From the NCBI RefSeq assembly GCF_017368815.1, contig NZ_JAFNME010000012.1:1-64000 (forward strand): DNA of 64,000 bases, written 5' to 3'. The notes under the pieces were generated by a model. It had not been told where the DNA came from and did no database searches. It saw only the letters and a program-made list of their open reading frames with translations. Shown piece after piece: positions 47,446-63,968 of the stretch. Source of the DNA: Comamonas denitrificans (GTDB lineage: Bacteria > Pseudomonadota > Gammaproteobacteria > Burkholderiales > Burkholderiaceae_C). The first letter of the stretch is position 1. Each line of letters opens with the position of its first letter. The translations under genes and the position numbers were made by a program.

Positions 47446-48564
47446 ATGGCAGCAGAAAAAATCTACGTTACCCAGCCCTACCTGCCCCCCTTGGAGGAGT
47501 TCATCCCCTACCTGGAGCAAATCTGGGCCAATAAAGTACTGACCAACGGCGGCCCCTTTCACCAGCAACTCGAACAAGCACTGTGCCGCTATCTGGGGGT
47601 GCCGCACATCAGCCTGTTTAGCAACGGCACCCTGGCCCTTATTACGGCCCTGCAAGCGCTGCGCATTAAGGGGGAAGTGATTACCACCCCCTACTCTTTT
47701 GTCGCCACGGCCCACGCCCTGCTGTGGCAAAACTGCACACCCGTGTTTGTCGATATCGAGCCGCACACCCTCAACCTGGACCCCGCCAAAATCGAAGCGG
47801 CGATCACCCCGCAAACCACCGCCATCCTGCCCGTGCACTGCTACGGCAACCCCTGCGACACCGCAGCGATTCAAAAAATTGCCGACAACTACAACCTGCG
47901 CGTCATCTACGACGCGGCCCATGCCTTTGGCGTGCAAGATGCCGGAGGCAGCATCTTGCGCCACGGCGACCTATCGGTACTGAGCTTTCACGCCACCAAG
48001 GTCTTCAACACCTTTGAAGGCGGCGCCATCATCTGCCACGATGCCAAAACCAAACAGCGCATTGATCACCTGAAAAACTTTGGCTTTGTGGACGAGGTCA
48101 CCGTAGTCGCCCCAGGCATCAACGCCAAAATGAGTGAAATCAACGCCGCTTTTGGCCTGCTGCAACTGGAACACATGCCACATGTCATGCAGCGCCGGGC
48201 CGAAATTGATGCCTATTACCGCGAGCAACTGGCCCATGTGCCAGGAATTACCTGCTTACCCCAAGGCCACCAGACTGTGGCCAATCATTCATACTTTCCG
48301 ATTCTTGTTGGGCCTGAATACCCTTTAAGCCGAGATGCTTTGTATGAAAAGCTCAAAGAGCATGGTATTTATGCACGGCGGTATTTTTATCCGTTGATTA
48401 CTGATTTTCCGATGTATAAAAATCTTTCATCAGCAAACAAAAGCAACATTTTAAATTCAAAAGAATTTTCGGAGCAAGTCTTATGCGCACCAATCTTTCC
48501 AGAACTTTCTTTAAAAAATCAAATAAAAATTATTGACATTATTAAATCTTCAGAAATAAGGTGA
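47446..48564 (+). CDS. DegT/DnrJ/EryC1 sugar aminotransferase, VioA-like
   Basis: This 372-residue PLP enzyme resembles VioA, which makes dTDP-4-amino-4,6-dideoxyglucose from the 4-keto sugar. Support comes from PYLPPLEEFIPYLEQIW, LFSNGTLALITALQALRI, ILPVHCYGNPCD, YDAAHAFGV and the PLP lysine in SFHATKVFNTFEGGAI. The start is the ATG at 47446; the frame from 47308 begins in a repeat. Composition changes inside the gene. The line at 47761-47820 is 39/60 G+C while 48421-48480 is 18/60, with the change near 48250-48290. The C-terminal quarter thus looks foreign. Confidence 0.85.
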   Translation: MAAEKIYVTQPYLPPLEEFIPYLEQIWANKVLTNGGPFHQQLEQALCRYLGVPHISLFSNGTLALITALQALRIKGEVITTPYSFVATAHALLWQNCTPVFVDIEPHTLNLDPAKIEAAITPQTTAILPVHCYGNPCDTAAIQKIADNYNLRVIYDAAHAFGVQDAGGSILRHGDLSVLSFHATKVFNTFEGGAIICHDAKTKQRIDHLKNFGFVDEVTVVAPGINAKMSEINAAFGLLQLEHMPHVMQRRAEIDAYYREQLAHVPGITCLPQGHQTVANHSYFPILVGPEYPLSRDALYEKLKEHGIYARRYFYPLITDFPMYKNLSSANKSNILNSKEFSEQVLCAPIFPELSLKNQIKIIDIIKSSEIR

Positions 48565-48568
48565 AGCA

Positions 48569-49309
48569 ATGCATAAACATGCAATTATTACTGGAACAAG
48601 TGGTGCTATCGGACAAGCGCTCGCTGAAAAATTTAAAAGATCTGGATATAAAATATGCGCTATTGATATCAAAGAAATACAAGACCAGAATGTAGATTTT
48701 TTCATAAAAACAGATTTGAATCAATTTGTTCTGAATAAAAATATACAAGAAATTACTTTTAAAAAAATAGAAACCTGGCTAGAAAAAAATCATATTGACA
48801 TATTAATTAACAACGCTGCTTATCAGTATGTATCGACTTCACACCCCATTGATGAAACAGAATTCATGACATCTTATAACATTAATGTGATTGCACCTTA
48901 TATTCTAATATCACATTTAAAAAATAAGATGACCAAAAATACCGGGAATATTATAAACATTGGCAGCATACACACAAAACTCACCAAACCCGGCTTTGTA
49001 GCTTATGCAACGACCAAAGCAGCATTGGCTGCATTAACCAGAGGCTTGGCACTTGACTACGAAGATACGGTAAGAATTAACTGTATAGAACCAGCATCTG
49101 TAGAAACGCCTATGCTGCACGATGGGTTTAAAAATGCCCCAGAAAGCATGAGACTATTAGAAAGCTATCATCCCCAAAAAAGAATAGCAACCCCAAATGA
49201 AATTGCAGAACTTGCTTTTTTTATTTCTTCAGAAAAAATTAGATTTTTGCACGGCGCATGTATAGACATCAGCGGAGGAATATCCAGCAGACTTCATGAC
49301 CCACTCTGA
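48569..49309 (+). CDS. Short-chain dehydrogenase/reductase 1
   Basis: This 246-residue classical SDR has the NAD(P) loop TGTSGAIG (residues 9-16), NNAA, and the catalytic Ser and YxxxK in NIGSIH...YATTK. It ends in the usual DISGG block. AAGGTGAAG precedes the ATG. It is AT-rich like the rest of the island, and starts 4 bp after the aminotransferase stop. The substrate is unknown; in context it is a sugar or hydroxy-acid. Confidence 0.85.
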   Translation: MHKHAIITGTSGAIGQALAEKFKRSGYKICAIDIKEIQDQNVDFFIKTDLNQFVLNKNIQEITFKKIETWLEKNHIDILINNAAYQYVSTSHPIDETEFMTSYNINVIAPYILISHLKNKMTKNTGNIINIGSIHTKLTKPGFVAYATTKAALAALTRGLALDYEDTVRINCIEPASVETPMLHDGFKNAPESMRLLESYHPQKRIATPNEIAELAFFISSEKIRFLHGACIDISGGISSRLHDPL

Positions 49310-49325
49310 ACAAAACTCAAAAAAT

Positions 49326-50255
49326 ATGAATGATACTGTATGCACACCATATATAAATAAGGTATTTACGCTGGGTGAAGGGCTAGTATGGGATGCTAAC
49401 GATCAATCCATATTAATGACAGATATATTAAAAAAATTATTTGTAAAAATAAATCCTAAAACCAGAACTTATGAATCTTGGTCTTTCCAAGAACCTATAG
49501 GCTGGGTATTTCCAACAAAAACAAAAAATATATACTTAGTCGGCCTACAGAGTGGAATTGCTTTATTTAATACTCATTACCCAAAGAATTTAAATTGGAT
49601 TGACAAAAGTTTTCCAGAGAAAAAATACTGCCGCTTAAATGATGCCTGCATAGACTCACACGCCAGAATTTGGTATGGGAGCATGAACAATGTGGATAAC
49701 TCTGCCAAAGATGGTGAGGTTGCAAGTTACTCTACGGGAGAGGGCCTAAAAATACATGACAGAGGCTTCTCCGTTGTGAACGGCCCATTGATTTCTCCTG
49801 ATGAAAAATTTATGTACATCAATGACACCTTGGAAGGTATTATTTATCGCTATGATTTCTCTGTAAATCATGGAACAATTAAAAATAAACAAATTTTTTC
49901 AAAATTTAGCCCAACCCACGGTTTTCCTGATGGCATGTGTTTTGACAAAGAAAATAATTTATGGGTAGCTATGTGGGGAAGCGGATGTATCATGAGGATT
50001 CATCCGAATGGGAATATTTTAAAAAAAATTCATTTACCAGCACCAAATATTACTAATATATGTTTTTTCGGGAAAGATAATAAAAATCTATTAGTCAGCT
50101 CCGCTAGTATAGGAATAAAGAAAGATGAAATTAATAAATATCCATTCGCTGGCTACTTATTTGAAATAAAAAATCATGATACACAAGGAATACCAACACA
50201 CACTGCAAGCATCAATAATGACACCTTTGATATCTATTGTAGTCCCAATATATAA
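49326..50255 (+). CDS. SMP-30/gluconolactonase-like protein
   Basis: This six-bladed beta-propeller lactonase has 309 residues. The N-terminal metal ligand motif LGEGLVWD, RLNDACIDSHARIWYGSM, VNGPLISPDEKFMYINDT and FPDGMCFDKENNLWVAMWGSG match the family, with the Glu, Asn and Asp metal ligands in place. It may open a sugar lactone to a sugar acid. I prefer the ATG at 49326; a start at 49296 would overlap the SDR. It overlaps the following glycosyltransferase by 38 bp. Confidence 0.82.
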   Translation: MNDTVCTPYINKVFTLGEGLVWDANDQSILMTDILKKLFVKINPKTRTYESWSFQEPIGWVFPTKTKNIYLVGLQSGIALFNTHYPKNLNWIDKSFPEKKYCRLNDACIDSHARIWYGSMNNVDNSAKDGEVASYSTGEGLKIHDRGFSVVNGPLISPDEKFMYINDTLEGIIYRYDFSVNHGTIKNKQIFSKFSPTHGFPDGMCFDKENNLWVAMWGSGCIMRIHPNGNILKKIHLPAPNITNICFFGKDNKNLLVSSASIGIKKDEINKYPFAGYLFEIKNHDTQGIPTHTASINNDTFDIYCSPNI

Positions 50256-51438
50256 CTTAGCGCCATATTTATTTCAATGTATTCATAGCATTACAAACCA
50301 AACTTATAAAAATCTTGAAATCATTTTAGTAGATGATGGATCTACTGATAACGCTTTAGAGATTTGTGAATTCTTCAGAAAATCCGACTCCAGAATAAAA
50401 ATAATTACACAAAAAAATAGTGGTCTTGTATCCGCAAGAAAATCCGGTGTACGCATGGCATCTGGAGATTATATTTTTTATATTGATGGTGATGATTGGA
50501 TAGATACTGACTGCATAGATCAATATCTTAAATATATTCAAGAATATGATGTAGACTTAGTTATAGGAAACTATAAAAGAGAGTTGCTAGGAAAATTTAA
50601 AACAATAAAAAATCATATTACTCCAGGTAAATACACTCAAGCAGAGATAGAAAAATACCTGATACAAAAAATCATCTGGGATGAGCAAATAACAAACCAT
50701 GGCATTAAAACCTATTCATGGGGAAAATTATTTAAATCCAATTTAGTTAAGAAGTTTCAAGAAACTATACCTAATGAAATCATGGTTGGCGAAGATGCCG
50801 CACTTTTATACCCCATAATTTTTAATTCAAAATCCATATATATAACAAATATTAATGCATACAATTACAGGCAAAGATCAAACTCTATATTAAAGTCCAT
50901 CAACTTTAATACAGATAATGAAATAAAAAAAATAGCTATAGCATTTCAGTATTTAGCATCAGCACTTCCAGAAGATACAAAAAAACAACTTCAAAAGTAT
51001 TTTCAATCGATCTGCATCATAAGAGCAGGCGGATTTATTGGAAATAATGATATTTATAAAAATCTTCTTATTTTTGGATCAATTAAAGAAAAATCAATTA
51101 TATCCATCTACAATTCTGGATCATTTGGTCAGCACACCTATAGGCAAATTCAAAATAATACAGACTATAAAATTAAAGACTGGTTTGATATTGATCATCA
51201 TGAAAACAATTTGACAAAAATGTCCATAAAACCTCCAGAATTCATTAACACGTGTGATTTTGATTACCTGCTAATACCATCTTTCAATCAAGAAACAATA
51301 AATGAGTTTTTAAGTATTACAAAAAAATACAACCTAGATTTAGAAAAGATTCGTTTTGCGACACTAGGAGTAAAAAATACAAATGATTTTATTAATTTAC
51401 TTGGATTTAATTCTGAAAACTTCTCTCCACTAAAATAA
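50218..51438 (+). CDS. Family 2 glycosyltransferase with extra C-terminal domain
   Basis: This 406-residue GT-A enzyme has ISIVVPIYN, the nucleotide motif VDDGSTD and the metal motif DGDDW. After the catalytic part there is a second region (about residues 300-385) with IYNSGSFGQHTYRQI, DWFDIDHH and CDFDYLLIPSF. It looks like a small Rossmann-like domain found attached to some sugar-modifying enzymes. No membrane segment is seen, so it works in the cytoplasm. The ATG at 50218 lies inside the end of the lactonase gene. Confidence 0.83.
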   Translation: MTPLISIVVPIYNLAPYLFQCIHSITNQTYKNLEIILVDDGSTDNALEICEFFRKSDSRIKIITQKNSGLVSARKSGVRMASGDYIFYIDGDDWIDTDCIDQYLKYIQEYDVDLVIGNYKRELLGKFKTIKNHITPGKYTQAEIEKYLIQKIIWDEQITNHGIKTYSWGKLFKSNLVKKFQETIPNEIMVGEDAALLYPIIFNSKSIYITNINAYNYRQRSNSILKSINFNTDNEIKKIAIAFQYLASALPEDTKKQLQKYFQSICIIRAGGFIGNNDIYKNLLIFGSIKEKSIISIYNSGSFGQHTYRQIQNNTDYKIKDWFDIDHHENNLTKMSIKPPEFINTCDFDYLLIPSFNQETINEFLSITKKYNLDLEKIRFATLGVKNTNDFINLLGFNSENFSPLK

Positions 51439-51441
51439 GTC

Positions 51442-52695
51442 ATGAAAAAACAAAAGATTATTATTCTTGGAGGAAATCCAGAAACAGGTGCTATTGTTGA
51501 CGTTGCCAACAAGATGGGACTACACACTATTGTTATAGATCCTTATCCAAATGCTCCTGCAAAAAAAAATGCGCACAGCACTTATAATATTGACGTAAGA
51601 GAGACGGACAAGATAAATAAAATTATTAAAAATGAACAAGTGGGAGGTGTTTTAGTTGGAGTGGCCGATCCACTAGTTCCATATTATGAAAAAATATGCC
51701 GAGAGAATAATTTCCCCTGCTACGCAACTAAAGAAATTATTAACTATTTTTCTTCGAAATCCAATTTCGCAGGAATTTGCAGCAAAAATAATATAAATGT
51801 TATACCAAGCTATAGTACAGATAGCGATCTAAATAAATTAGCTTATCCTGTCGTTATCAAACCCGTGGATAGTGGTGCAGGTGTTGGTATTTCTATTTGC
51901 AATACACCTATAGAAGCAGAAATTGGTATAAAAAAAGCCTTAGAAGTCTCGATAAAAAAAGAATATCTTATTGAAAAATACATGGAATGTGATGATATGT
52001 TTGCCTATTACACATTCATCAATGGGGAAGTTTACTTATCAGCTCTTGCCGATAGATATAAAACAAAAAAACAAGGAACATCTAGCTCTGTCTGCATTGC
52101 AGCAGAATACCCCAGTAAGTATAAAGAAATATTCATTGAAAAAATACACCCAAAACTTGTTTTAATGTTTAAAAAACTTGGTGTACATAATGGAGTCTTA
52201 CTGATTCAATTCTTTGTTGATCAAGAGAATTTTTATGCTTACGATCCTGGATTTAGGATACAAGGCGAAGCGCCACATATTTATTTAAAACACTTTAATA
52301 ATTTTGATCATAGAGAAATGTTGATCAATTTTGCCATGACAGGATCTATGTATAGTGGCAACTTCAGTGAAAAGAATAATTGCTTATTTTCTGGGGAACA
52401 TGCTGCGACTTTATGGGTTTTATTAAAAGCAGGAACGATTGGAAAAATATCTGGCATAGCTGAAATAAAATCACACCCCAATGTCATCAACTTTATTCAA
52501 CGCTTTAATTCAAATGACATTATTGAAAATAATATGCTAGGAACAGAGCGCCAAGTTTTTTGCAGAATTTATACTACTGCCAAAGAAAAATCAGAAGTAC
52601 AAAAAACAATAAACTTTATCAAAGATAATTTAATTATTGAAGACAATAAAAAACAAGATATGATTTTAGATTTTTGGAATGGTCATGAAAAATAA
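51442..52695 (+). CDS. ATP-grasp ligase
   Basis: This 417-residue carboxylate-amine or carboxylate-thiol ligase is of the carbamoyl-phosphate-synthetase-like type. It has an N-terminal Rossmann-like pre-ATP-grasp domain (IIILGGNPETGAIVDVANKMG). The ATP-grasp core follows (YPVVIKPVDSGAGVGISIC, EYLIEKYME) and then a metal-site region (FYAYDPGFRIQGEAPH). Such enzymes make amide bonds through an acyl-phosphate. In a nucleotide-sugar cluster it could join an acid to an amino sugar. It starts 3 bp after the glycosyltransferase and overlaps the next SDR. Confidence 0.82.
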   Translation: MKKQKIIILGGNPETGAIVDVANKMGLHTIVIDPYPNAPAKKNAHSTYNIDVRETDKINKIIKNEQVGGVLVGVADPLVPYYEKICRENNFPCYATKEIINYFSSKSNFAGICSKNNINVIPSYSTDSDLNKLAYPVVIKPVDSGAGVGISICNTPIEAEIGIKKALEVSIKKEYLIEKYMECDDMFAYYTFINGEVYLSALADRYKTKKQGTSSSVCIAAEYPSKYKEIFIEKIHPKLVLMFKKLGVHNGVLLIQFFVDQENFYAYDPGFRIQGEAPHIYLKHFNNFDHREMLINFAMTGSMYSGNFSEKNNCLFSGEHAATLWVLLKAGTIGKISGIAEIKSHPNVINFIQRFNSNDIIENNMLGTERQVFCRIYTTAKEKSEVQKTINFIKDNLIIEDNKKQDMILDFWNGHEK

Positions 52696-53446
52696 TATAT
52701 TTACTTATGCTCATAGAACAGCAATTGTTACTGGAGGGTCAAAAAATATTGGTTTATCTATCACAGAAAAATTTCTAGCAGCAGGAATGCAAGTTGCTAT
52801 CATCAGCTCAGAAAAATCCAATCTTGATTCTGCAAAAGAATACTTAAACCAAAGCAACTCTAACGTTTCATTTTGGCAAAGCAATATAACTCATACTGCA
52901 TCCTTGGAAAAATTAATAGCCAATATAAATCAGCACCATGGATCTATTGACATATTAGTAAACAATGCGGCTCTATTAGAAATAACCAGTGTAGAGCAAA
53001 CAACTGAGGAAGACTGGGATAGTGTTTTAGATGTTAATTTAAGAGGTGCGTTTTTTATGACGCAAAAGTGCCTTCCTTATCTAAAAAAGGGTACGGCACC
53101 TCGAGTTATCAATATCTCATCAAATGCAGGAAGAATGGGCGGCTATGCCAATGGATTAGCGTATACCGCATCAAAGGGTGGCATAATCTCATTAACCTAT
53201 GGATTAGCCAGAAAACTTGCTCCCTATGGGATTACAGTAAATTGTGTAGCACCAGGAACTATAGACTCAGAGATGAATAGAATGCGCGATATAGAAACAC
53301 AAAAAGAACTAATTAAAAAATTCCCATTGGGTCGTATTGGTACTCCAGAGGAAGTTGCATCTGCAGTTTGTTATTTTGCCAGTCAAGAATCTAGCTTCAC
53401 TACAGGTGCGGTTTTAGATGTGAACGGTGGCATGTTTATGGGATAA
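52685..53446 (+). CDS. Short-chain dehydrogenase/reductase 2
   Basis: This classical SDR of 253 residues has VTGGSKNIGLSI, VNNAA, ISSNAGRMGG and the catalytic YTASKGG, ending VLDVNGGMFMG. The ATG at 52685 has GGAA at a suitable distance; an alternative ATG is at 52679. It overlaps the ATP-grasp gene and is followed 4 bp later by another SDR gene. Confidence 0.84.
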   Translation: MKNNIFTYAHRTAIVTGGSKNIGLSITEKFLAAGMQVAIISSEKSNLDSAKEYLNQSNSNVSFWQSNITHTASLEKLIANINQHHGSIDILVNNAALLEITSVEQTTEEDWDSVLDVNLRGAFFMTQKCLPYLKKGTAPRVINISSNAGRMGGYANGLAYTASKGGIISLTYGLARKLAPYGITVNCVAPGTIDSEMNRMRDIETQKELIKKFPLGRIGTPEEVASAVCYFASQESSFTTGAVLDVNGGMFMG

Positions 53447-53450
53447 AGCT

Positions 53451-54209
53451 ATGAATTTATTTGATCTAAGTGGAAAAAGTGCACTCGTCGTAGGTGGCGC
53501 TGGAGATATAGGCTTTGCTATCGCAGAAGGTCTTGCAGAAGCAGGTGCTACTGTAATAGTCTTAGACATAGACCCTAGAGTACATGAGCTGGCAACATCT
53601 ATGAAAGATAAAAAATTATCAGCTCACGCATTAGAAGCAAACGTACAAAATAGAGATGAAATAAAAAAATCCATCACTGCTGCAGAAAATATTTTTCAAG
53701 GCAGCATTAATATTTTGGTTAATTCTGCTGGGATACAGCGAAGAAATTCAAGTGAATTTTTTCTAGAAAAAGATTGGGATGATGTTTTGGAAATTAATCT
53801 TACCGCTACTTTTTTGTATTCTCAGCAAGTGGCACAGAAAATGCTACAAAATTCATATGGCAAGATCATTAATATTTCATCCATTATGGGGAATTTTGGT
53901 GGTATTACAATACCTGCATACGCAGCCTCAAAGGGTGGCGTAACCCAGCTCACCAAAGCCTTATCTAATGATTGGGCTAAAAAAGGTATTTGTGTGAATG
54001 CTATTGCACCTGGTTATATTAATACGCGTTTGAATACAAAGCTAATTTCAGATCCAAATAGAAGTGCAGAAGTTTTACTCAGAACGCCCTTAAATCGTTG
54101 GGGAACACCTCAAGACCTCAAAGGCGCTGCAATTTTTCTCGCATCCAAAGCAAGTGATTTCATTACAGGAACCGTCATCAACGTAGATGGTGGATACTCA
54201 GCAAGATAG
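53451..54209 (+). CDS. Short-chain dehydrogenase 3, KduD-like
   Basis: This 252-residue SDR has GGAGDIGFAIAEGLAEAG, NSAGIQRRNSSEFFLEKDWDDVLEINL split as usual, YAASKGGVTQLTKAL, and APGYINTRLN to VINVDGGYSAR. The NSAGIQRR and EKDWDDV blocks recall 2-dehydro-3-deoxygluconate 5-dehydrogenase (KduD) and gluconate 5-dehydrogenases. It therefore probably oxidises or reduces a sugar acid, which agrees with the lactonase-like neighbour. Confidence 0.82.
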   Translation: MNLFDLSGKSALVVGGAGDIGFAIAEGLAEAGATVIVLDIDPRVHELATSMKDKKLSAHALEANVQNRDEIKKSITAAENIFQGSINILVNSAGIQRRNSSEFFLEKDWDDVLEINLTATFLYSQQVAQKMLQNSYGKIINISSIMGNFGGITIPAYAASKGGVTQLTKALSNDWAKKGICVNAIAPGYINTRLNTKLISDPNRSAEVLLRTPLNRWGTPQDLKGAAIFLASKASDFITGTVINVDGGYSAR

Positions 54210-54216
54210 AAGATAT

Positions 54217-55125
54217 ATGAACGTCTTAGTCTTAGGTGGATACGGATTTATAGGCAGCCACATCATAGATATATTAAGTAAAAACTTAATAAAAACCTTT
54301 GTTTACGACAAAAATTCAAAAGAAGATAAAAATAATACTTTTTATATCAATGGTGATTTTTCAGATTTATTATATATAGAAGATACTATAGTAAAGAATA
54401 ATATAACTCATATTATTCATCTCATATCCACAACACTACCAAAAAATTCAAATGAAGATATACCCTTTGATATAACAAGCAATGTTGTACAAAGCATAAA
54501 AATAATGGATTTATGCGTTAAATATGAAATTAAAAAATTTATATTTATGTCTTCTGGAGGGACAGTATACGGAATACCACAATACCTTCCTATGAATGAA
54601 GAGCACCCAACCAATCCACTCTGCTCTTATGGAATTACAAAGCTGTCAATAGAAAAATATTTGCAAATTTATCATCGACTACATGGACTAAACTACTCAA
54701 TTATCAGAGCTGCTAATCCTTATGGTCCTCGACAAAATTATTTATCCGGACAAGGTATTATTGCCAATTTTGTTCACAAAATAGAACAACAACAAGCTTT
54801 AGAAATTTGGGGAGATGGTGAAATTATTCGTGATTATTTTGATGTTAGAGATCTAGCAAGTCTAACTTTTTCTGTCTTAACTACAGATAAAACTGGAATA
54901 TTCAATGCAGGTAGCGGCACTGGCTTATCAATCAATGAAATTGTGAAGGTAATATCATCTACCACAAATACAAAACCAAAAATTATTTATAAAGAAAAAA
55001 GAAACTTTGATATACCAAGTGTAATATTAGACATAAGTTTAACAAGAGAAATATTTAATTGGCATCCAGAAATAAATATACAGAAAGGAATTGAAAATTA
55101 TTTACAGTGGTACAGAAAAAACTAA
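54217..55125 (+). CDS. NAD-dependent sugar epimerase/dehydratase
   Basis: This 302-residue extended SDR has NAD loop GGYGFIGSH (residues 7-15), SSGGTVYG and the catalytic YGITK. RAANPYGPRQ and IRDYFDVRDLA follow, as in GalE-type nucleotide-sugar epimerases. It probably alters a nucleotide-linked sugar of the island pathway. It starts 7 bp after the KduD-like gene. Confidence 0.84.
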   Translation: MNVLVLGGYGFIGSHIIDILSKNLIKTFVYDKNSKEDKNNTFYINGDFSDLLYIEDTIVKNNITHIIHLISTTLPKNSNEDIPFDITSNVVQSIKIMDLCVKYEIKKFIFMSSGGTVYGIPQYLPMNEEHPTNPLCSYGITKLSIEKYLQIYHRLHGLNYSIIRAANPYGPRQNYLSGQGIIANFVHKIEQQQALEIWGDGEIIRDYFDVRDLASLTFSVLTTDKTGIFNAGSGTGLSINEIVKVISSTTNTKPKIIYKEKRNFDIPSVILDISLTREIFNWHPEINIQKGIENYLQWYRKN

Positions 55126-55162
55126 TCTCACTTTAAACACAATACTCTTTTATATATAGATC

Positions 55163-55843
55163 ATGAAGAACACCATTAATATAAGGCCTAGTCAGTTGCT
55201 TTCAATTGAGGACAACTTTCCAGAAGAGGTAAAATTTTTTATGCCTCCTGCACAAGGTGCAGGCTCATTAACCACACTTGAATCCATCTCACTTATTAAG
55301 CTTTTACGTATAACAAAAGCAAAAAGAATTTTTGAGTTTGGAACATATAAAGGCATTACAACACGATTGCTCTTAGAAAACTACCCAAACAGTTATGATC
55401 AAGAGCCCGTTATCTATACTCTTGATTTGCCCAATATCGAAGGAGTCGAATTTATTGCATCAGATAAAGAACATGCTTTAACATCTATAAAATCTCGAAG
55501 AAAATATATAGAATCAAAAAACAGCAATTTAGTTAAGCAGTTACTAACAGATTCAAAAAAATTCGATCCTTCCCCATATTTAAATAAATTTCAATTTATT
55601 TTTGTAGATGCTAATCACGAAGTTTCATACGTAAAAAATGATACTGAAAAAGCATTAGCCATGTTGGACAAAAACAATCCAGGCACTATTATTTGGCATG
55701 ACTACAAAAGCAAAGACTTTCCAGAATTAACCAATTACATAGATAGCTTAGATATTGGAATGAATATTTATCATATAGAGAATACTATGCTTGCATTCTG
55801 TTTAATAGGGGTAGATGAGAAAAATTTAAAAAATAAAAAATAA
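55163..55843 (+). CDS. SAM-dependent methyltransferase 1
   Basis: This class I methyltransferase has 226 residues, with motif I IFEFGTYKGITTRLLLE (residues about 56-72). A strand with FVDANHEVSYVKNDTEKALAML and the following IIWHDYK resemble the Methyltransf_24 family. It could O- or N-methylate a sugar; the substrate is not evident. It lies 37 bp after the epimerase gene. Confidence 0.75.
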   Translation: MKNTINIRPSQLLSIEDNFPEEVKFFMPPAQGAGSLTTLESISLIKLLRITKAKRIFEFGTYKGITTRLLLENYPNSYDQEPVIYTLDLPNIEGVEFIASDKEHALTSIKSRRKYIESKNSNLVKQLLTDSKKFDPSPYLNKFQFIFVDANHEVSYVKNDTEKALAMLDKNNPGTIIWHDYKSKDFPELTNYIDSLDIGMNIYHIENTMLAFCLIGVDEKNLKNKK

Positions 55844-55892
55844 ATCAAAAAATATTACTCATATCGAATTATCAACTAACTTTTTTCTAAAA

Positions 55893-56465
55893 ATGCCTCT
55901 ACCATCTGAATTTGATAACCACCATATTCCAATTTCAAGAAAATTTATTGATGATATAAGAGAATTGTTTATTGATCAATATGTAAAACCAGGCGATTTA
56001 TTGCTGGATATAGGAAATCAAGGAAAGTATAAAAAAGAAAAAAAATATCAATCTCACACTTTTGACATTACAAATACAACATCTCCAGATATTTTAGGAG
56101 ATATAACAACATTTAACTCTAAGATTAATAACGAAACATATGATTCAGTCGTATGCACCGAGGTACTCGAGCATGTTGTAGATCCATTTTCCGCCATCGA
56201 AGAAATAAAAAGAATAACTAAAATTGGCGGCCATGTTCTTTTCACGACTCCGCTCAATGCCAGAATCCATGGTCCTATTCCAGACTGCTGGAGATTCACA
56301 GAGTTCGGGTTGAAAGTTCTCTTGCGCGATTTTGAAATGGTTTATTTTCAAAAGTTAGATACCCCAGGAAGAAATTTATTTCCTCTTCATTATGGATGCA
56401 TCGTAAAAAAAATTACTGATAAAAAAAGTGATCCCAGAATTCTAAGCTTTCAAAAAATAGATTAA
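55893..56465 (+). CDS. SAM-dependent methyltransferase 2
   Basis: This is a 190-residue class I methyltransferase. The SAM loop is weak (LLLDIGNQGKY), but VVCTEVLEHVVDPFSAIEEIKRITKIGGHVLFTTP is typical of Methyltransf_11 proteins. It is the last gene of the plus-strand run and overlaps the convergent GT41 gene by 4 bp. The role is inferred only from context. Confidence 0.72.
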   Translation: MPLPSEFDNHHIPISRKFIDDIRELFIDQYVKPGDLLLDIGNQGKYKKEKKYQSHTFDITNTTSPDILGDITTFNSKINNETYDSVVCTEVLEHVVDPFSAIEEIKRITKIGGHVLFTTPLNARIHGPIPDCWRFTEFGLKVLLRDFEMVYFQKLDTPGRNLFPLHYGCIVKKITDKKSDPRILSFQKID

Positions 56466-59338
56466 ATAACAATCTTCTTCTCTTCATAAGAAATATCTTC
56501 ATTTTTTATTTCGAAGTAAGTTGGCTTCTGGCCACTGCACCATTTACTCCAAATAATACAAATACTTTTTTCAAATCCATTGATTAAAGAATTCAGATCA
56601 CTTATATAATTTTCAAGCATATGACTTCTTAAAGAAGATTTAATTTCCTTAGTAAGATGATTATTTTTCTTCAAAAACAATGCTTTAGCAACGAAATCTT
56701 CTTTATTATTAGCAACCAGATACTTACCCAGCCCAAGTCTATTATTAACAGCCGCACCTTGTGCGCTAGGATAAGTATCTCCAGCTAAAGTAAGCGTTGG
56801 AACGCCCATCCAGAGTGCATGTAAAGTTGTAGTTCCACCTGTATAAGGAAAAGTATCTAAACAAATATCCACTTGGTTGTGTAATTTAAGATATTCAATA
56901 AATCCAGATCGAGGATAAAAATAAAGCCGATCCTCAGAAATACCCTCTTCTTTAAACCACGCCAATAATTCTTCTGGAGCACCACCGCTTGGCATACCTG
57001 CCATTTGGAGTCGAGAATCAGGAATTTTTCGTAAAACGTCACACCATAAAGCTATTATCTCGCGGTTAATTTTATTCAACCGATTGAACGAACCAAATGT
57101 AATGTAATTATTATTAGACAACTCCTGTTTCAAATCAGGCAGTTCTCTACTTGCATCGAATGCATAAGACCTAGGAACTCTAATTATTTTTTCAGCAAAT
57201 TGATTATTTATATTTCTATCTGGCAGTACTGTATTTTCTATAAAAATATAATCCATCGCCTTCAAGCCAGTCGTCCCAGGATAACCAATCCAGGTTATTT
57301 GAACAGGTGCTGGATGTCGAGCGAAAACCTTCAGTCGGTCCCCAGCAGTATGGCCACTCATATCCACTAGAATATCAATTTGGTCTTCCCGGATTTTTTC
57401 GGCTAATTTGTCATCTGACCACTGCACCACAGTGCGCCAGACATCCATGTTTTCTTTAATCCGCAGCATCGAATCATCGACCGCTCCATGGTTGGAATAG
57501 GCGTAAGTGATAAAACCTTCACGCTTGTGCAGTTCTTCAAAAAATGGAATGACAAACTTGGCGACTGCATGGTTACGAAAGTCGGCGGAAACAAAACCTA
57601 TTTTTAAAGGACGGTCAATCACGCGGCTGTTGGTGTAGGTGGTGTATTCCTTGCCTTTCACCTCTTCTTCAATCAATTTACCGTAAGCACGGTGCTCTCG
57701 GTACAGCTCTTCGGGGGTGATTTTGGTGCTATGACTCAGGGCAAACAGCATGCTGCTGCGGGCATGGGAGAAGTTAGGAGCAACTTCCAATGCTTTGCGA
57801 AAGCATGCAATGGCATCATCAGCGCGGCTAAGGGAAAGGTTCACAATTCCTAAATTGGTGTGCAAGTGCGGAATATTGGGCAAGACTTTAATGCTGGCCT
57901 TAATTTCCTCCATAGCTGCTAAGGGATCTTCGGTGGCATTCAATGCAGCGCTAAGGGTAATATGGGCCGCAGCGTAATCTGGCTGGGCTTTGATTGCACG
58001 GCGCAGCCATTCCAATGCTTCATCTTCTTTTTTCTGCTGCACCAGGTTACGGCCAATTTCATACAGGCTTTCTGGGCTTTCATTGTCTATCTCTGCACAG
58101 CGCAGTAACCCGGCTTCGGCTTCGGCAAATCGACCATGCACTTCCAGTAAATGGCACAGGTTGCGCAGCGCCTGGGTGTAGCCAGGATGAATTTTTAAAG
58201 CTTGCCTAAAAGCATTTTCCGCAGCCCCCAACCGCTCTTGGTTGCGCAAGGTAACCCCATAGGCATCCAATAACTCTGCAGAATTTGGGCTTGCATCCAC
58301 AGCGGCTTTAAAACAGACCAGTGCGCCGTCTTGGTCACCTTGTGCCCGCAATAAAGAGCCAAATTTTTCTAAAAAAATCGGATTGAATTTCTCTTTTTGT
58401 AAAGCTCTGGCGTAGCTGTGCAGGGCTTGTTGAATATTGCCTTGTTTTTGATAAAGCAGCCCCATTTTTCCGTGGGCAGGGGCTGACTGTGGATCAACAC
58501 GCAGCACAGTTTCCAAAACCACCTGCGCCTTGTCGTCTTGGCCCAGCGCCAATAATGCATCAACCCACGCTATTTGCGCTGCCGTGTCTGTTGGCTGCAG
58601 CTGTGCGACTTGCTGGCGAGCGTGCAGTGATTTTTCTAAATTGCCACTGCGCTTTTCCGCCTCTGCCAATAATGTCCAGACTGCTGTCGCCTTAGGAAAG
58701 CGCTTGAGCAAGGTGGTCGCATGGAGGATGGTTCGATCGTATTTTTTTTGATTAAAAAGACTGAGTAATTGCTGTAAATCTGCCGTACCGGGATGGTCTG
58801 CAGCCGCGGTCGGTGCTGGCGCAGCTTGAGCCATCTCAGGTTCTGGCAATGGCGGGGCCTCTGCCAGTACCTTGGCAAGCAAATCATCTACCGATGCCTG
58901 GGCTAAGCGGATATCGCGCTGAAAAGATTCAATTTGCAAATCATTGAGGCCATAGTTGCTTGCAAGTGCCAGAACTTGTTCTGCCATTTCTGGCATATTG
59001 GCTTTAATGAGTGCATCGATATAACTAAACCAAAACTGAAGCTTGGTAGGGTTGTTATTCAGCGCAGCTTCAAAATAAGGCAGGGCTTTTATTGGCTCTA
59101 GCAATTGAACCGAATATAAAACCCCTAAATTATGCTGGGCATTTGCATCTTCTGGATTGTCTCGCAGAACAGCTTCGTACTGATCCCTTGCTTCTTCAAA
59201 GCGCCATTGCTGCTGCAGTTCAATAGCATGCTCGAGTTTATCTTCTGCTGAAGAATTTACATTGTCAAATTTTTTAACCTGTGGTTTCTTTTTAGCTAAA
59301 AAATTTTCGTTTTTGACAAGAGATTTTTTTTTATGCAT
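56462..59338 (-). CDS. TPR protein with O-GlcNAc transferase-type (GT41) domain
   Basis: This 958-residue SPINDLY/OGT-like protein has about 570 residues of N-terminal tetratricopeptide repeats (two groups, split by a Pro/Ala-rich linker near residue 170-185). The GT41 catalytic half follows, with IGFVSADFRNHAV, DMSGHTAGDRLKVFARHPAPVQITWIGYP and CLDTFPYTGGTTTLHALWMGVP. It is cytoplasmic. Beside a flagellin cluster it is a good candidate for flagellin O-glycosylation. Composition shifts inside the gene: 57001-57060 is 22/60 G+C and 58081-58140 is 33/60. The catalytic end thus belongs to the AT-rich island. Confidence 0.85.
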   Translation of the reverse strand: MHKKKSLVKNENFLAKKKPQVKKFDNVNSSAEDKLEHAIELQQQWRFEEARDQYEAVLRDNPEDANAQHNLGVLYSVQLLEPIKALPYFEAALNNNPTKLQFWFSYIDALIKANMPEMAEQVLALASNYGLNDLQIESFQRDIRLAQASVDDLLAKVLAEAPPLPEPEMAQAAPAPTAAADHPGTADLQQLLSLFNQKKYDRTILHATTLLKRFPKATAVWTLLAEAEKRSGNLEKSLHARQQVAQLQPTDTAAQIAWVDALLALGQDDKAQVVLETVLRVDPQSAPAHGKMGLLYQKQGNIQQALHSYARALQKEKFNPIFLEKFGSLLRAQGDQDGALVCFKAAVDASPNSAELLDAYGVTLRNQERLGAAENAFRQALKIHPGYTQALRNLCHLLEVHGRFAEAEAGLLRCAEIDNESPESLYEIGRNLVQQKKEDEALEWLRRAIKAQPDYAAAHITLSAALNATEDPLAAMEEIKASIKVLPNIPHLHTNLGIVNLSLSRADDAIACFRKALEVAPNFSHARSSMLFALSHSTKITPEELYREHRAYGKLIEEEVKGKEYTTYTNSRVIDRPLKIGFVSADFRNHAVAKFVIPFFEELHKREGFITYAYSNHGAVDDSMLRIKENMDVWRTVVQWSDDKLAEKIREDQIDILVDMSGHTAGDRLKVFARHPAPVQITWIGYPGTTGLKAMDYIFIENTVLPDRNINNQFAEKIIRVPRSYAFDASRELPDLKQELSNNNYITFGSFNRLNKINREIIALWCDVLRKIPDSRLQMAGMPSGGAPEELLAWFKEEGISEDRLYFYPRSGFIEYLKLHNQVDICLDTFPYTGGTTTLHALWMGVPTLTLAGDTYPSAQGAAVNNRLGLGKYLVANNKEDFVAKALFLKKNNHLTKEIKSSLRSHMLENYISDLNSLINGFEKSICIIWSKWCSGQKPTYFEIKNEDISYEEKKIVI

Positions 59339-59412
59339 AGAGCTTACTTTTATTTTTTAGTACGAAAACCCAAATAGGCTATAGATTCAAACACTGCATG
59401 TACTCTGATAAT

Positions 59413-59967
59413 TCACACACCAGCCAAATCAGCATCAACAAAACGCGGCTGGCGTTGGTCTTTATCTGACAATAAGTAATCTACTGGCAATGCAGGCCAG
59501 GCAATCGCTAAATCTGGGTCATTCCAGGCGATGCCTCGATCGCATTCGGGTGCGTAATAGGCTGTGGTTTTATAGAGAAAATCCGCCGTGTCGCTGAGCA
59601 CGACAAAGCCATGGGCAAAACCGGGAGGCAGCCACAGCTGTTTGTGGTTTTCGGCGGTGAGTGTCTCGGCCACCCACTGGCCAAAGGTGGGGGAATGGGG
59701 GCGAATATCGACGGCGACATCCCACACAGCCCCTTGCACGACCCGCACCAGTTTGCCCTGGGCGTGGGGGGGCAGCTGGTAGTGCAGCCCACGCAACACG
59801 CCCTGGCAAGAGCGGCTGTGGTTGTCTTGCACAAACTCGTAGCGGGTGCCGGTGGCGGCATCAAAGGCTTGCTGGTTAAAGCTTTCGGTAAAAAAGCCCC
59901 GGGCATCGCCAAACACTTTGGGTTCGAGCACCAGTACGTCGGCAATCGCGGTTTGCGTCACTTTCAT
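59413..59967 (-). CDS. rmlC: dTDP-4-dehydrorhamnose 3,5-epimerase
   Basis: This 184-residue cupin enzyme is the third step of dTDP-rhamnose synthesis. It shows [33 protein letters not shown] with the catalytic His, [14 protein letters not shown] and [10 protein letters not shown]. It overlaps rmlA by 4 bp. Composition is back to the GC-rich chromosome type. Confidence 0.95.
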
Positions 59968-60851
59968 CGCACATCCCCTTTCAAGCAGCGCAGTAGATAC
60001 TGGCCGTAGCCGTTTTTCAATAAAGGCTGGGCCAGACGACTGACTTGTGCATCATCAATCCAGTGGTTGCGCCAGGCGATTTCTTCCGGGCAGGCTACTT
60101 TTAAGCCTTGGCGCTGTTCAATGGTAGCGATGAATTGACCGGCTTCTAACAGGCTGTCGTGCGTGCCCGTGTCCAGCCAAGCGTAGCCACGCCCCATCAG
60201 CTGCACATTCAGGGCGGATTTTTCGAGGTAGAGCTTGTTCAAGTCGGTAATTTCCAATTCGCCACGCGGCGAAGGTTGCAGTGCCTTGGCCAGTTCCACC
60301 ACGTGCGCGTCGTAAAAGTACAGGCCCGTGACGGCGTAATGGGATTTTGGCTGTGCCGGTTTTTCTTCCAGCGACAGGACTTTGCCTGCCGCATCAAACT
60401 CGGCCACGCCATAGCGCTCGGGGTCTTGCACGTGGTAGGCGAAGACGGTGGCACCGTGGGTTTGGGCATCTGCCGCTTTTAAGAGGGGCTGCAGGCTATG
60501 GCCGTAAAAAATGTTGTCCCCCAACACCAAAGCCGAAGGGCTGCCCGCTAGGAACTGCTCACCAATCACAAACGCCTGCGCCAAGCCATCCGGGCTTGGC
60601 TGCACGGCGTACTGCAGCGACAGGCCCCATTGGCTGCCATCGCCCAAGAGCTGCTCAAACCGGGGGGTGTCTTGGGGTGTGCTGATGATTAAGATTTCCC
60701 GAATCCCCGCCAGCATCAGCGTGGATAAGGGGTAGTAAATCATGGGCTTGTCATAGACGGGCAGCAATTGTTTGCTAATTGCCAGGGTGGCCGGGTGCAA
60801 GCGGGTGCCAGAGCCGCCAGCCAGGATGATGCCTTTGCGTTGAGAGTGCAT
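59964..60851 (-). CDS. rmlA: Glucose-1-phosphate thymidylyltransferase
   Basis: This 295-residue enzyme makes dTDP-glucose. The N-terminus [36 protein letters not shown] is diagnostic, with [21 protein letters not shown] and [15 protein letters not shown] further on. It is the entry enzyme for dTDP-rhamnose and, by sharing the 4-keto intermediate, for the VioA-like aminotransferase. Confidence 0.96.
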
Positions 60852-60872
60852 AGAGTAGATAACTATTAATTG

Positions 60873-60927
60873 AACAGCTTGTGCCGCTGAATTTATAAGG
60901 ATTTCAGGACTTATTTAGTTTGAAATC
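60873..60927. repeat. Partial palindromic element between rmlA and rmlD
   Basis: The left-arm-like AACAGCTTGTGCCGCTGA is followed by a dyad GATTTCA...TGAAATC (60899-60926) overlapping the rmlD stop. The right outer arm is missing. Confidence 0.45.
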
Positions 60928-61814
60928 ATGATTTCATCAAGCATTCGAGCTACGCTTTTTTCCCAATGCGGGAGTTGAAGACCGAAGGTCGTTTCTAACT
61001 TGGTGCAATTGAGCCGCGAGTTAAGCGGGCGCTGCGCCGGGGTGGGGAAGGCGCTGGTGGCGACCGGTGCAATCTCTTGCACCTGCCACGGTCGCGCAGG
61101 TGCCAGGCGGCGGGCCTGCGCAATCACATAGCTGGCATAGCCATGCCAATGGGTTTCACCGCTGGCGGTGCAGTGGTACAAGCCGCCATCCTGCGGGTGG
61201 CGTTGCAAGTGGGCAATGGCATGGGCGGTGATATCGGCCAGCAACTCGGCACTGGTGGGTGCGCCCCACTGGTCGTTGATAACGGCCAAGCGCTCGCGCT
61301 CACTGGCCAGGCGCAGCATGGTTTTGGCAAAGTTATGGCCCCGTGCGGCATACACCCAGCTGGTGCGCAAAATCAAATGCTGGCAACCAGACGCTTGGAT
61401 GGCCTGCTCCCCCTCCCACTTGGTCTGGCCATAGACCGACAGCGGTGCAGGCGCATCGGCCTCTGTCCAGGGGCGGCTGCCGCTGCCATCGAACACATAG
61501 TCTGTGCTGTAGTGAATCAGCCAAGCGCCCAGGCGGGCCGCCTCCAGGGCAATCTGCCCTGGCGTGGTGGCATTGAGCACGCGCGCGCGCTCGGGCTCAC
61601 TCTCGGCCTTGTCCACGGCCGTGTGCGCCGCCGCATTGACAATCACGTCCGGCTGCAGCGCCCGCACCGTGGCCAGCACGCCCTCGGTGTTGGCAAAATC
61701 GCCGCAGTGCTCCGTGCCGTCCCAATCGACCGCCGTTACCTCGCCCAGCACGGCCAGGCTGCGCTGCAACTCCCAGCCCACTTGGCCGTTTTTACCGAAA
61801 AGAAGAATTTTCAT
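60915..61814 (-). CDS. rmlD: dTDP-4-dehydrorhamnose reductase
   Basis: This 299-residue reductase is the last step of dTDP-rhamnose synthesis. It starts MKILLFGKNGQVGWELQRSLA, and has NAAAHTAVDKAE, HYSTDYVFDGSG, the catalytic YGQTKWEGE and LRTSWVYAARGHNF. The ATG at 61814 matches the family start; one at 61820 adds two residues. rmlB, usually adjacent, is not found here. Confidence 0.95.
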   Translation of the reverse strand: MKILLFGKNGQVGWELQRSLAVLGEVTAVDWDGTEHCGDFANTEGVLATVRALQPDVIVNAAAHTAVDKAESEPERARVLNATTPGQIALEAARLGAWLIHYSTDYVFDGSGSRPWTEADAPAPLSVYGQTKWEGEQAIQASGCQHLILRTSWVYAARGHNFAKTMLRLASERERLAVINDQWGAPTSAELLADITAHAIAHLQRHPQDGGLYHCTASGETHWHGYASYVIAQARRLAPARPWQVQEIAPVATSAFPTPAQRPLNSRLNCTKLETTFGLQLPHWEKSVARMLDEIMISN

Positions 61815-61977
61815 CACCATGGCTGTTTAATACCGCAATATGTTTTAGAAGGTGTTGGCACGTTGCGTGCAGCAGTGCGAACGATTGTAGTGGGCCGCTT
61901 CGCGCTGAACCGCAGCAACACCATCCATGGGAGAATCAGCCCTTTTTTTTATTTCTCTTTTTTTGGCCAATCCATCC

Positions 61978-63089: not shown

Positions 63090-63950
63090 TCAGTAAATGC
63101 CCAGCAGCAGCAGGCCCAGCAGCAGCCAGGCATCGCGGCGACGGCGGCGCAGCTGGTAGAAGTTGCGGATCAAAAACCAGCGCTGCTGCAAGCATGCCGC
63201 CTGCTGCGGTGCCACCAGGCGTGCGATGGCCAGCACCTGCCGACGAAACCAATGCGAGCGCAGCAATGCCCAGCGCTTGCGGTAGGCGCTCAAGCCGGCG
63301 TTGATGCCCACTTGGTTGCTGGCATGCTGGCGGTAATGCATGCTGGGCACCGGGTCGATGTACCAGCGCAACCCCTGGGTGCGGCAGTAGGCATACACCA
63401 GCCAGTCATGCAAATCGACCGCCCGCAAGGCGTGGGCATTGGCACGCACCCAAGGCTGCAGCTGGGCCATCGCGCTGGCACCCAGCACGTAGGTACAACC
63501 GGGGCCAGCCGCCTCAAAAAAATAATCCAGTGTCTTTTGCGGCTGCGCTTTGTCGATCAACTGGCTGCGCCCATCGTCCCAAACCGCCAGCACATTCGAG
63601 GAATACACCGCGCAGGCTCCAGAGGCCAGGCGCTGCCAGGCCCGCTGCAGCTTATCTGGCAGCCAAATATCGTCTTGGTCGGCAAACGCCACCGCATCAA
63701 AGTTGGCGCAGTCCACCTGGCACAGCAGATGAAAAAAGTTGGCCCCCGCACTGCCCAGTCGGCCCGCATCGGGCAGCAGCGTGACGGCAGGCTCGGCCTG
63801 GCTCAAGGCCTGCACCCAGGCACGCGTCCCATCGGTTGAAGCATCGACACTGATGAACAGCGCCACCTGCACCCCTTGCTGGGCCAGAATGCTCTGCACC
63901 TGCTGCTGCAGCCATGCCATGCCGTTGTAGGCCGCCAGCAGCACCGCCAT
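63090..63950 (-). CDS. Family 2 glycosyltransferase, rhamnosyltransferase-like
   Basis: This GT-A enzyme of about 286 residues has MAVLLAAYNGMAWLQQQ, ISVDASTDGT (in place of DDGSTD), the metal motif FADQDDIWLPDK and the acceptor-side DLHDWLVYAY. These resemble rhamnosyltransferases of O-antigen clusters, which agrees with nearby rml genes. It could start at the ATG at 63950 or the GTG at 63959. The frame stays open to the window end through a 12-bp tandem repeat, so a longer N-terminus cannot be excluded. Confidence 0.8.
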   Translation of the reverse strand: MAVLLAAYNGMAWLQQQVQSILAQQGVQVALFISVDASTDGTRAWVQALSQAEPAVTLLPDAGRLGSAGANFFHLLCQVDCANFDAVAFADQDDIWLPDKLQRAWQRLASGACAVYSSNVLAVWDDGRSQLIDKAQPQKTLDYFFEAAGPGCTYVLGASAMAQLQPWVRANAHALRAVDLHDWLVYAYCRTQGLRWYIDPVPSMHYRQHASNQVGINAGLSAYRKRWALLRSHWFRRQVLAIARLVAPQQAACLQQRWFLIRNFYQLRRRRRDAWLLLGLLLLGIY

Positions 63951-63968
63951 GCGGGGCACAGAGGGCGC

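Follow-up and report, generated by a model that had tools for sequence, protein, structure and literature searches.

We describe here an apparently borrowed gene set, beside the flagellin genes of Comamonas denitrificans, that probably makes an unusual flagellar sugar. In the reading that we hold to be slightly favoured by the evidence, the island makes a viosamine-type sugar, takes the acyl group for it from an acquired cassette by means of an ATP-grasp protein, and attaches the product to flagellin. The window, as we call the whole stretch of DNA analysed, comprises 64,000 nucleotides, and coordinates refer to it.

The proposed pathway uses genes labelled A to K in map order. RmlA and RmlB, the latter encoded elsewhere in the genome, would supply dTDP-4-keto-6-deoxyglucose, which A would aminate to dTDP-viosamine. 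B would convert an aldose to its lactone, C would open the lactone to an aldonic acid, and G and F would oxidise and then re-reduce this acid, thereby epimerising it. E would turn the acid into an acyl phosphate and then couple it with dTDP-viosamine at the 4-amino group; J and I would O-methylate, D and H would contribute or modify another sugar, and K, a GT41 protein, would transfer the glycan onto flagellin. Recombination within the genes of the aminotransferase and of the GT41 protein would have brought the cassette into a slot of fixed order, flagellin-aminotransferase-[cassette]-GT41.

Gene content of the island

Ten intact genes (47446-56465), a TPR-GT41 gene and rmlCAD adjoin the flagellin genes in the open reading frame map, and a flagellin gene (45794..47038, plus strand; Pfam Flagellin_N and Flagellin_C) forms the left edge of the slot. 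The gene list of the earlier note is fully present as intact reading frames, and Pfam and NCBIfam assign them to the families stated there: a DegT aminotransferase, three classical SDRs, an SMP-30/gluconolactonase, a GT2, an ATP-grasp protein, a GalE-like epimerase, one methyltransferase each of Methyltransf_24 and Methyltransf_11/23, a TPR plus GT41 protein, RmlC, RmlA and RmlD. Genes A to J lie on the plus strand. Among them D, the GT2 glycosyltransferase (50176..51438; Pfam GT2, E 7e-38), has an extra C-terminal region that is conserved in cassette homologues (alignment of 7 sequences), and H, the NAD-dependent GalE-like epimerase (54187..55125; Pfam Epimerase, E 3e-41), has the UDP-glucose 4-epimerase 4zrm as its best PDB match (E 2e-53). 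They are followed by the methyltransferases I (55163..55843; Methyltransf_24, Pfam E 4e-9) and J (55893..56465; Methyltransf_11/23 by Pfam). On the minus strand lie K (56462..59338; Pfam Glyco_transf_41, E 5e-53, plus TPR), which is likely the flagellin-directed glycosyltransferase, and, also by Pfam, rmlC (59413-59967), rmlA (59964-60851) and rmlD (60915-61820).

Pfam likewise found no flippase, polymerase or NeuB gene within the island, as had been noted before, and Polysacc_synt (PF01943) gave zero matches genome-wide at E 0.001, being present in 13 of 14 control genomes. Just past the island sit a Glycos_transf_4 gene (61927-63078), whose family we assume to be linked to undecaprenyl phosphate, and a GT2 gene (63090-63959). 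Open reading frames beyond the window suggest a type I secretion region.

The aminotransferase A (47446..48564; Pfam DegT, E 7e-100) is DesI/VioA-like, which agrees with its earlier description as VioA-like. Its best NCBIfam model is TIGR04427 DesI at 284 bits, far below the equivalog cut-off of 650, and its best PDB match is 2po3 (E 6e-66), which we take to be DesI itself. On this similarity A is predicted to be a dTDP-4-keto-6-deoxyglucose 4-aminotransferase. The Rml precursor pathway is complete in the genome, with rmlB outside the island (G000:C8:73005-74015; 515 bits against an NCBIfam cut-off of 365).

An apparently acquired segment inside a conserved slot

The GC content of cassette genes B to J (0.29-0.38) lies far under that of flagellin (0.59) and rmlCAD (0.57-0.63), which suggests that the greater part of the island was acquired. 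In blastn, homology to four same-genus slots ends at 48416-48417 and restarts at 56754-56774, and 60-bp bins show steps of identity at these borders. Together with the drop in GC, this places the cassette at approximately 48417..56753. The island had been drawn from 47446 to 61814; the gene set is real, and the foreign part is narrower, from about 48417 to about 56754-56774. The left border thus falls inside A and the right border inside K, near the 3' end of K. In this sense A is a mosaic: it agrees with the copies of the same genus as far as base 48416 and departs from them over the last ~148 bp, so that against the copy of genome G028 the body of the protein is identical at 317 of 323 positions and the tail at 15 of 37. 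The last ~148 bp of A probably came in with the cassette. We name no donor for this tail, since none of the 15 relatives aligned stands clearly nearer than the rest over the last 37 aligned residues (24-41% identity).

We also considered one fixed border site across slots, and rejected it, as the end positions in A vary between comparisons. When the slots are compared pair by pair, the four comparisons that involve the window lose homology at base 971-972 of A and the three others that involve L080 at base 977, but among L081, L082 and L083, three relatives that stay homologous to each other past the junction seen in the window, it runs on to base 989-1062. The borders are therefore close to one another and do not form a single site, and the identical border in the four window comparisons reflects mainly one junction in the window.

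Four same-genus genomes, and with the window five of the seven that have A, retain the order flagellin-aminotransferase-[cassette]-GT41, and the GT41 proteins that close the slot in these four are 58-76% identical to K. The cassette itself differs. It consists of a NeuD/VioB-like transferase with AMP-binding, LuxE, LuxC and SDR genes in L080, of a hexapeptide transferase in L081, of a WbqC protein in L083, and of an ATP-grasp gene with a ComA-ComB fusion (sulfolactate synthesis) and a methyltransferase in L082; a variant slot in L085 likewise carries an ATP-grasp gene. The ATP-grasp protein of L082 was recognised through NCBIfam PRK12767 (E 2e-9, below cut-off), has no PDB match, and showed no support for relatedness to E by profile comparison. 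No VioB/NeuD protein above cut-off was found genome-wide in the window strain (eight weak matches, the best of 58 bits). In agreement with the earlier suggestion that an ATP-grasp enzyme stands in for an acyltransferase, the ATP-grasp cassette occupies the slot where relatives have other cassettes, in part acyltransferase ones.

These slots lead us to a tentative proposal, which we hold a little short of even: that flagellin carries viosamine in this genus and that the N-acyl group of this sugar is modular, whole cassettes being swapped between species, as O-antigen loci are, through recombination within the two flanking genes, for the aminotransferase and the GT41 protein. The types would be acyltransferase, WbqC, sulfolactate plus ATP-grasp, and aldonate plus ATP-grasp, and the acyl group of the window strain would be a lactonase-derived, possibly epimerised aldonic acid added by the ATP-grasp ligase.

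The lactonase and the dehydrogenases

C (49296..50255; Pfam SGL, E 1e-61) fits the SMP-30/gluconolactonase family both by profile and by the positions E, N, N and D, which we take to be metal ligands and which are kept in 9 of 9 aligned sequences. Its best PDB match, 7plb (E 3e-42), is titled only as a Smp-30/Cgr1 family protein; we presume it to be the Caulobacter-type xylonolactonase. B (48569..49309; Pfam adh_short_C2, E 3e-36) is a possible NAD-type aldose 1-dehydrogenase: its best NCBIfam models are glucose 1-dehydrogenase and aldose dehydrogenase, both below cut-off, and the motifs G-S-x-H and Y-A-x-[ST]-K are common to all 11 aligned sequences, B included. The counterpart of B in Flavobacteriaceae is without its acidic cofactor residue in the alignment. 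The pair B and C resembles the xylose dehydrogenase (an SDR) and xylonolactonase (SMP-30) of Caulobacter type, which belong to a catabolic pathway.

F (52679..53446) is FabG-like, reaching only the cut-off of a broad NCBIfam FabG subfamily (234 bits, cut-off 222), with FabG as best PDB match (E 3e-46). Its alignment shows no acidic NAD residue and, by the cofactor rule that we assume to hold here, F is predicted to be an NADPH reductase. G (53427..54209), an NAD-type SDR like KduD or gluconate 5-dehydrogenase, scores 253.5 bits with NCBIfam kduD against an equivalog cut-off of 338.85 and can be called KduD-like only; its best PDB match is a 2-deoxy-D-gluconate 3-dehydrogenase (E 1e-59), and 7 of its top 8 PDB matches are named sugar-acid dehydrogenases. 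The substrates of the SDRs cannot be read from sequence. The retained ligands of C and the closeness of G to sugar-acid dehydrogenases suggest that the acyl group may be an aldonic acid.

The ATP-grasp protein and alternative readings

E (51442..52695; Pfam Dala_Dala_lig_C, E 2e-8) has the ATP-grasp fold by profile, matching 4dim (E 1e-22), carbamoyl-phosphate synthase, PurK, PurD and D-Ala ligase, and it is predicted to be a carboxylate-amine ligase. The canonical metal ligands E ... E-x-N-x-R are absent from E and from the aligned members of its family, which have Q/S ... [DE]-x-G-x-R instead; Q/S and [DE]-x-G are found in 28 of 28 members and R in 27, one L009 copy having H. Carbamoyl-phosphate synthase has glutamine as first metal ligand, so the noncanonical motif lowers the case for activity and does not exclude it. 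Two open frames of 775 and 654 aa that might have been fusions of the E gene look more like long frames of GC-rich DNA, in which tblastn gives separate D, E and F matches. Of 12 new matches in Clostridia, 8 were taken in, leaving out three short fragments and G1181; the plasmid collection gave two weak matches, 23-24% identical.

The E proteins of the window, of Limnohabitans (L003) and of two genomes of its family (L054, L055) form one clade with 100/100 support, and each of the four is encoded in a flagellar locus with a DesI/VioA-like aminotransferase. In L054 and L055, flgK and a gene with a flagellin N domain, flgL to judge from its place, directly precede an operon A-B-J-C-D-E-F-G-H that is 44-65% identical to the window; I has no match there (tblastn, 1e-12). 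In Limnohabitans, flagellin genes enclose the aminotransferase, E, J and a GT41 protein, and B, C, D, F and G are missing. Homologues of J are 56-60% identical in these three loci and 48% in L030. This placement agrees with the flagellar role first proposed from the window. Among E loci in general, 11 have an aminotransferase match, of which 9 were compared with DesI (L037 is truncated and L056 weak); DesI was the best match in 8 of the 9, always below its cut-off.

Of the 19 close E loci, 15 contain D, 15 contain C and 14 contain both. They include Flavobacteriaceae, where the SDR-lactonase-GT2-ATP-grasp set sits in polysaccharide loci and, in the stretches read, no match to A lies near, except in the distant truncated locus L037; in five such genomes searched whole, A has matches elsewhere of just 29-37% identity. 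The acceptor of E therefore need not be viosamine. This association of C and D with E is what would be expected if the cassette built another sugar unit of its own, with B, C, F, G, H and E making a sugar acid or its amide, D transferring it onto the glycan, and viosamine left free or acylated otherwise. We judge this reading distinctly less probable than viosamine acylation by E, and still worth weighing, given that C. jejuni amidates the glucuronic acid of its capsule by means of an ATP-grasp domain that shares one protein with a GT2 (PMC11800379). Against it, the DesI-like aminotransferase stays with E in all four flagellar loci, even where D is missing in Limnohabitans, and the alternative cassettes of the slot hold acyltransferase-like, acid-making or acid-activating genes.

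That Limnohabitans carries E without B, C, D, F and G also means that the substrate of E may be something other than an aldonic acid. E could then join an ordinary metabolite, such as an amino acid or hydroxy acid, to viosamine, the SDRs and lactonase serving another step. This is unlikely in our view. A distant relative of E (L059) has an L-amino acid ligase C-terminal domain and, as far as the accessible text tells, Fuc3N of C. difficile type B bears taurinyl-Ala-Gly and needs an ATP-grasp gene (PMC5207246, PMC5207245). However, C shares the locus of E in 15 of the 19 close cases, from more than one phylum, and this is hard to explain if C is unrelated to the substrate of E.

A role in LPS, capsule or another surface polysaccharide, to which the Glycos_transf_4 gene starting at 61927, the polysaccharide loci of Flavobacteriaceae and rmlCAD, shared in general with LPS pathways, might point, is very improbable, given the flagellar context of all four clade members and the lack of a PF01943 match in the genome, to which the flagellin-A-cassette-GT41 order in 5 of 7 same-genus genomes adds.

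Comparison with known systems

In a literature search that covered few subscription journals, and in which absence of a report is no proof, we found among the papers listed none joining viosamine or Qui4N with an ATP-grasp enzyme, none combining lactonase, ATP-grasp, flagellin, aminotransferase and glycosyltransferase, and none on sulfolactate in flagellin glycosylation. If true, our reading would add a new acylation chemistry for flagellin glycans, sugar acid plus ATP-grasp ligase, and would mean that flagellin sugars diversify through exchange of whole cassettes with recognisable borders. With several cassettes occurring naturally in one slot, the ligase question becomes open to test, as with the same aminotransferase and GT41 the flagellin masses should differ by predictable acyl groups.

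The viosamine island of P. syringae pv. tabaci (vioA, vioM, vioT, vioS, vioB, vioR, acp), as far as its available description goes, shares with ours a FabG-like SDR and rhamnose precursors; A would by similarity be the counterpart of its VioA, and one of our two methyltransferases may correspond to VioM (PMC3927599). Its target is flagellin, which here is the probable target by gene context. By contrast, our island lies at the flagellin genes, is itself without VioB, VioS or ACP by Pfam, and adds the ATP-grasp, lactonase, three SDRs, epimerase, TPR-GT41 and GT2 genes (PMC3927599).

Likened by description, in the portion of the report available, sfmABCDE of Shewanella oneidensis is a flagellin modification operon with an ATP-grasp protein (SfmE), an SDR (SfmC) and a methyltransferase (SfmD), and differs in its pseudaminic-acid-like 274-Da sugar and TPP enzyme (PMC3765264). 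The Campylobacter jejuni amidoligase Cj1438 couples ATP-grasp amide formation to a GT2 in a surface glycan, the accessible text stating that a TupA-like ATP-grasp domain amidates the glucuronic acid carboxylate with an amine, in the capsule (PMC11800379).

For the idea of acylation by an ATP-grasp enzyme, the type B flagellin of C. difficile offers a precedent by analogy: its dTDP-derived amino sugar bears a peptidylamido cap that depends on an ATP-grasp gene (PMC5207246, PMC5207245). That locus, CDR20291_0241-0247, shares the ATP-grasp gene and nearby Rml genes with ours, and also the dTDP-derived amino sugar on flagellin that we predict here. It differs in making Fuc3N through an FdtB-like enzyme and in its FemAB and ornithine cyclodeaminase-like genes, and the available text of PMC5207246 and PMC5207245 names no lactonase or sugar-acid SDRs, both of which the window has.

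Results

The earlier note proposed that A, a DegT aminotransferase, makes viosamine, that the ATP-grasp protein E joins an acid made by neighbouring genes to its 4-amino group, and that flagellin is the target. The gene families on which this rested were all borne out, with intact reading frames. Genes A-J (47446-56465, plus strand) comprise, besides A and E, the SDRs B, F and G, the SMP-30/gluconolactonase-family lactonase C, the GT2 protein D, the GalE-like epimerase H and the methyltransferases I and J. They are followed on the minus strand by K, encoding a TPR-GT41 protein (56462-59338), and by rmlCAD (59413-61820). A flagellin gene (45794-47038) precedes A, with more flagellin genes to its left; among these a gene pair is duplicated in tandem (39988-42737 and 42855-45604, with an offset of 2867 and 81% identity across 2750 bp), one flagellin (41356-42537 and 44223-45404) differing in 2 of 393 residues between copies and the other having diverged in length, 412 versus 407 aa.

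The genome, assembled into 74 contigs (3.0 Mb, completeness 99.98%), encodes an RmlB above its family cut-off on another contig, so dTDP-4-keto-6-deoxyglucose can be made. The best model for A is DesI (284 bits; the equivalog cut-off of 650 is not reached), and its nearest solved relative is 2po3, which we take to be DesI. DesI is also the best model, below cut-off, for the aminotransferases of eight of nine E-containing loci tested, that of the ninth, L061, being PseC-like. On these grounds A likely performs a 4-amination yielding viosamine. No NeuD/VioB family protein over the cut-off was found in the genome (eight weak matches, the best of 58 bits against 160.8), and the PF01943 flippase gave no match in it, while 13 of 14 control genomes do match. 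Immediately downstream of the window (L011:1039-7346, contig positions 64039-70346), the ORFs read as a putative outer-membrane factor, a protein resembling HlyD and a pair of probable ABC transporter components, which suggests type I secretion and not an O-antigen locus.

We found A (E-value 1e-90 or better) in 12 of 120 genomes searched as relatives, seven of them of the same genus, the window's included, and compared the loci of all 11 others. Flagellins occur in 8/11, GT41 homologues in 8/11 and WbqC in 6/11. The window's order of flagellin, A, cassette and GT41 gene is repeated in four (L080-L083, from G028, G035, G024 and G042 respectively), with differing cassette content. L080 holds a TylF-like methyltransferase, an AMP-binding protein, LuxE, LuxC, a NeuD/VioB-like hexapeptide protein (148 bits versus a cut-off of 160.8) and an SDR; L081 one hexapeptide transferase; L083 WbqC, a methyltransferase-like ORF and one further ORF. 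The L082 cassette (L082:9105-12485) encodes an ATP-grasp protein (PRK12767-like, E-value 2e-9), a methyltransferase and a ComA-ComB fusion, that is, phosphosulfolactate synthase plus phosphatase, which suggests sulfolactate as an acyl substituent of a flagellin sugar. In a variant slot (L085, from G040), WbqC and an ATPgrasp_Ter protein occur alongside GT41 proteins and flagellins; the ATPgrasp_Ter gene (L085:12077-13474), phosphatase-like in its C-terminal part by a weak match, adjoins WbqC and an ORF reading like an aminotransferase. In L084 (G013) A occurs with WbqC, and no flagellin was seen at the locus. One additional long ORF lies between flagellin and A in G035 and G042: that at L081:14144-17311 has ALTTAQ repeats, and that at L083:6063-9275 is of similar size, in the same place, and 64% identical to it in DNA.

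The cassette borders lie inside A and K. Blastn homology between the window's slot and the four others breaks off within A, at 48416 in three comparisons and at 48417 in one, and picks up again within K, at 56754-56774. Across the left border, identity to G028 in 60-bp bins goes from roughly 0.97 down to 0.45, identical residues of A go from 317/323 to 15/37, and GC drops at the same place; the right border is less sharp (from about 0.4-0.6 to 0.67-0.75). The common endpoint mainly reflects a single junction, that of the window. L080 shows a border of its own, 6 bases beyond that one (base 977 of A), when compared with the three remaining slots, and homology among L081, L082 and L083 runs to base 989-1062; it is therefore probable that exchanges reached into the 3' part of A repeatedly, with no single fixed site.

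Outside the window's own genome, E was found neither among 149 genomes searched as relatives (E-value 1e-20) nor among 369 genomes of its class (E-value 1e-40), own genome counted in both. A scan of named genomes gave eight E loci, from Limnohabitans, Maribacter, another Flavobacteriaceae genome, Lachnospiraceae and Verrucomicrobia. Counting the starting genomes, E occurs in 8/299 genomes of the family of a Maribacter genome, 3/299 of the Limnohabitans family and 13/245 of the Lachnospiraceae genome's class. In a tree of 28 E proteins, the window, Limnohabitans L003 and the two genomes L054 and L055 form one clade (100/100), next to a Flavobacteriaceae clade. L003 has J, the ATP-grasp gene, A and a TPR-GT41 gene between two flagellin genes, with FlgK, FliD and FlaG nearby. 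In L054 and L055 an operon A-B-J-C-D-E-F-G-H (44-65% protein identity to the window) lies downstream of flgK and of a second gene, by position flgL, whose product has a flagellin N-domain. Thus all four clade members stand in flagellar loci. GC of the cassette genes is 0.29-0.38 in the window versus 0.59-0.71 in L054 and L055. After the L054 operon comes a protein of 1447 aa that carries RgpF and GT2 domains.

As to the acid, C keeps the four putative metal ligands of SMP-30 lactonases, conserved in 9/9 aligned sequences, and its top PDB match is 7plb. Among the top eight PDB matches of G, seven are named gluconate, 2-deoxygluconate or hexonate dehydrogenases. The motifs G-S-x-H and Y-A-x-[ST]-K are present in 11/11 sequences, made up of B and its SDR counterparts from L054, L055, Flavobacteriaceae, Verrucomicrobia, Lachnospiraceae and L030. 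B and G score under the cut-offs of their best families, and F passes only that of a broad FabG subfamily. Judged by the usual cofactor residue, B and G appear to use NAD and F to use NADP, which would suit B and G as oxidising and F as reducing enzymes; in Flavobacteriaceae, however, the protein corresponding to B has no acidic residue at this position. Together these features suggest a route that would run from aldose to lactone to aldonic acid, followed by epimerisation.

Discussion

By profile search E matches carboxylate-amine ligases and related ATP-grasp proteins. Its metal motif in 28 family members is Q or S plus [DE]-x-G, then R in all but one, which has H; in the ATP-grasp protein that L082 carries at this slot, the motif is the canonical E-I-N-L-R. 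We infer that the acceptor of E would be the amino sugar of A, because A shares the locus with E in the four clade members and because E takes the place of acyltransferase-like, acid-making or acyl-activating cassettes in relatives.

Against the model stands the gene content of the 19 loci with a close E homologue (at least about 39% identity, counting the window; L007 and L008 are cut short by contigs). C accompanies E in 15 and D in 15; G is found in 12 at more than 55% identity and F in 9 at more than 50%. An A of some 60% identity or higher, by contrast, is confined to the four flagellar loci, other aminotransferases reaching 36% in L009 and 23.5% in L056. The core set therefore exists without A, in polysaccharide loci, and in L003 E is present without B, C, D, F and G. 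Either the amine acceptor and acid of E vary, or the cassette serves another function. On the Verrucomicrobia contig L009 (653-10171) E is present twice: F and G accompany one copy, while the second stands with an SDR, a lactonase and an aminotransferase that strongly resembles DesI (522 bits against a cut-off of 650), as if the set were divided into two modules. An IMG/VR contig (L030:6457-12595) carries homologues of E, D, the lactonase and J together with an SDR and a gene resembling rmlD.

Neither a lactonase/sugar-acid branch nor cassette exchange at this slot was found in the literature searched. The modified viosamine of P. syringae is made with vioA, vioM, vioT, vioS, vioB, vioR and acp (PMC3927599). 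Other reports describe C. difficile type B flagellin, where Fuc3N is capped with taurinyl-Ala-Gly and an ATP-grasp gene is required (PMC5207245, PMC5207246), the S. oneidensis flagellin modification operon, where sfmE is an ATP-grasp gene (PMC3765264), and C. jejuni Cj1438, a GT2 coupled to an ATP-grasp amidoligase (PMC11800379). Precedents therefore exist for ATP-grasp enzymes in flagellin glycan loci.
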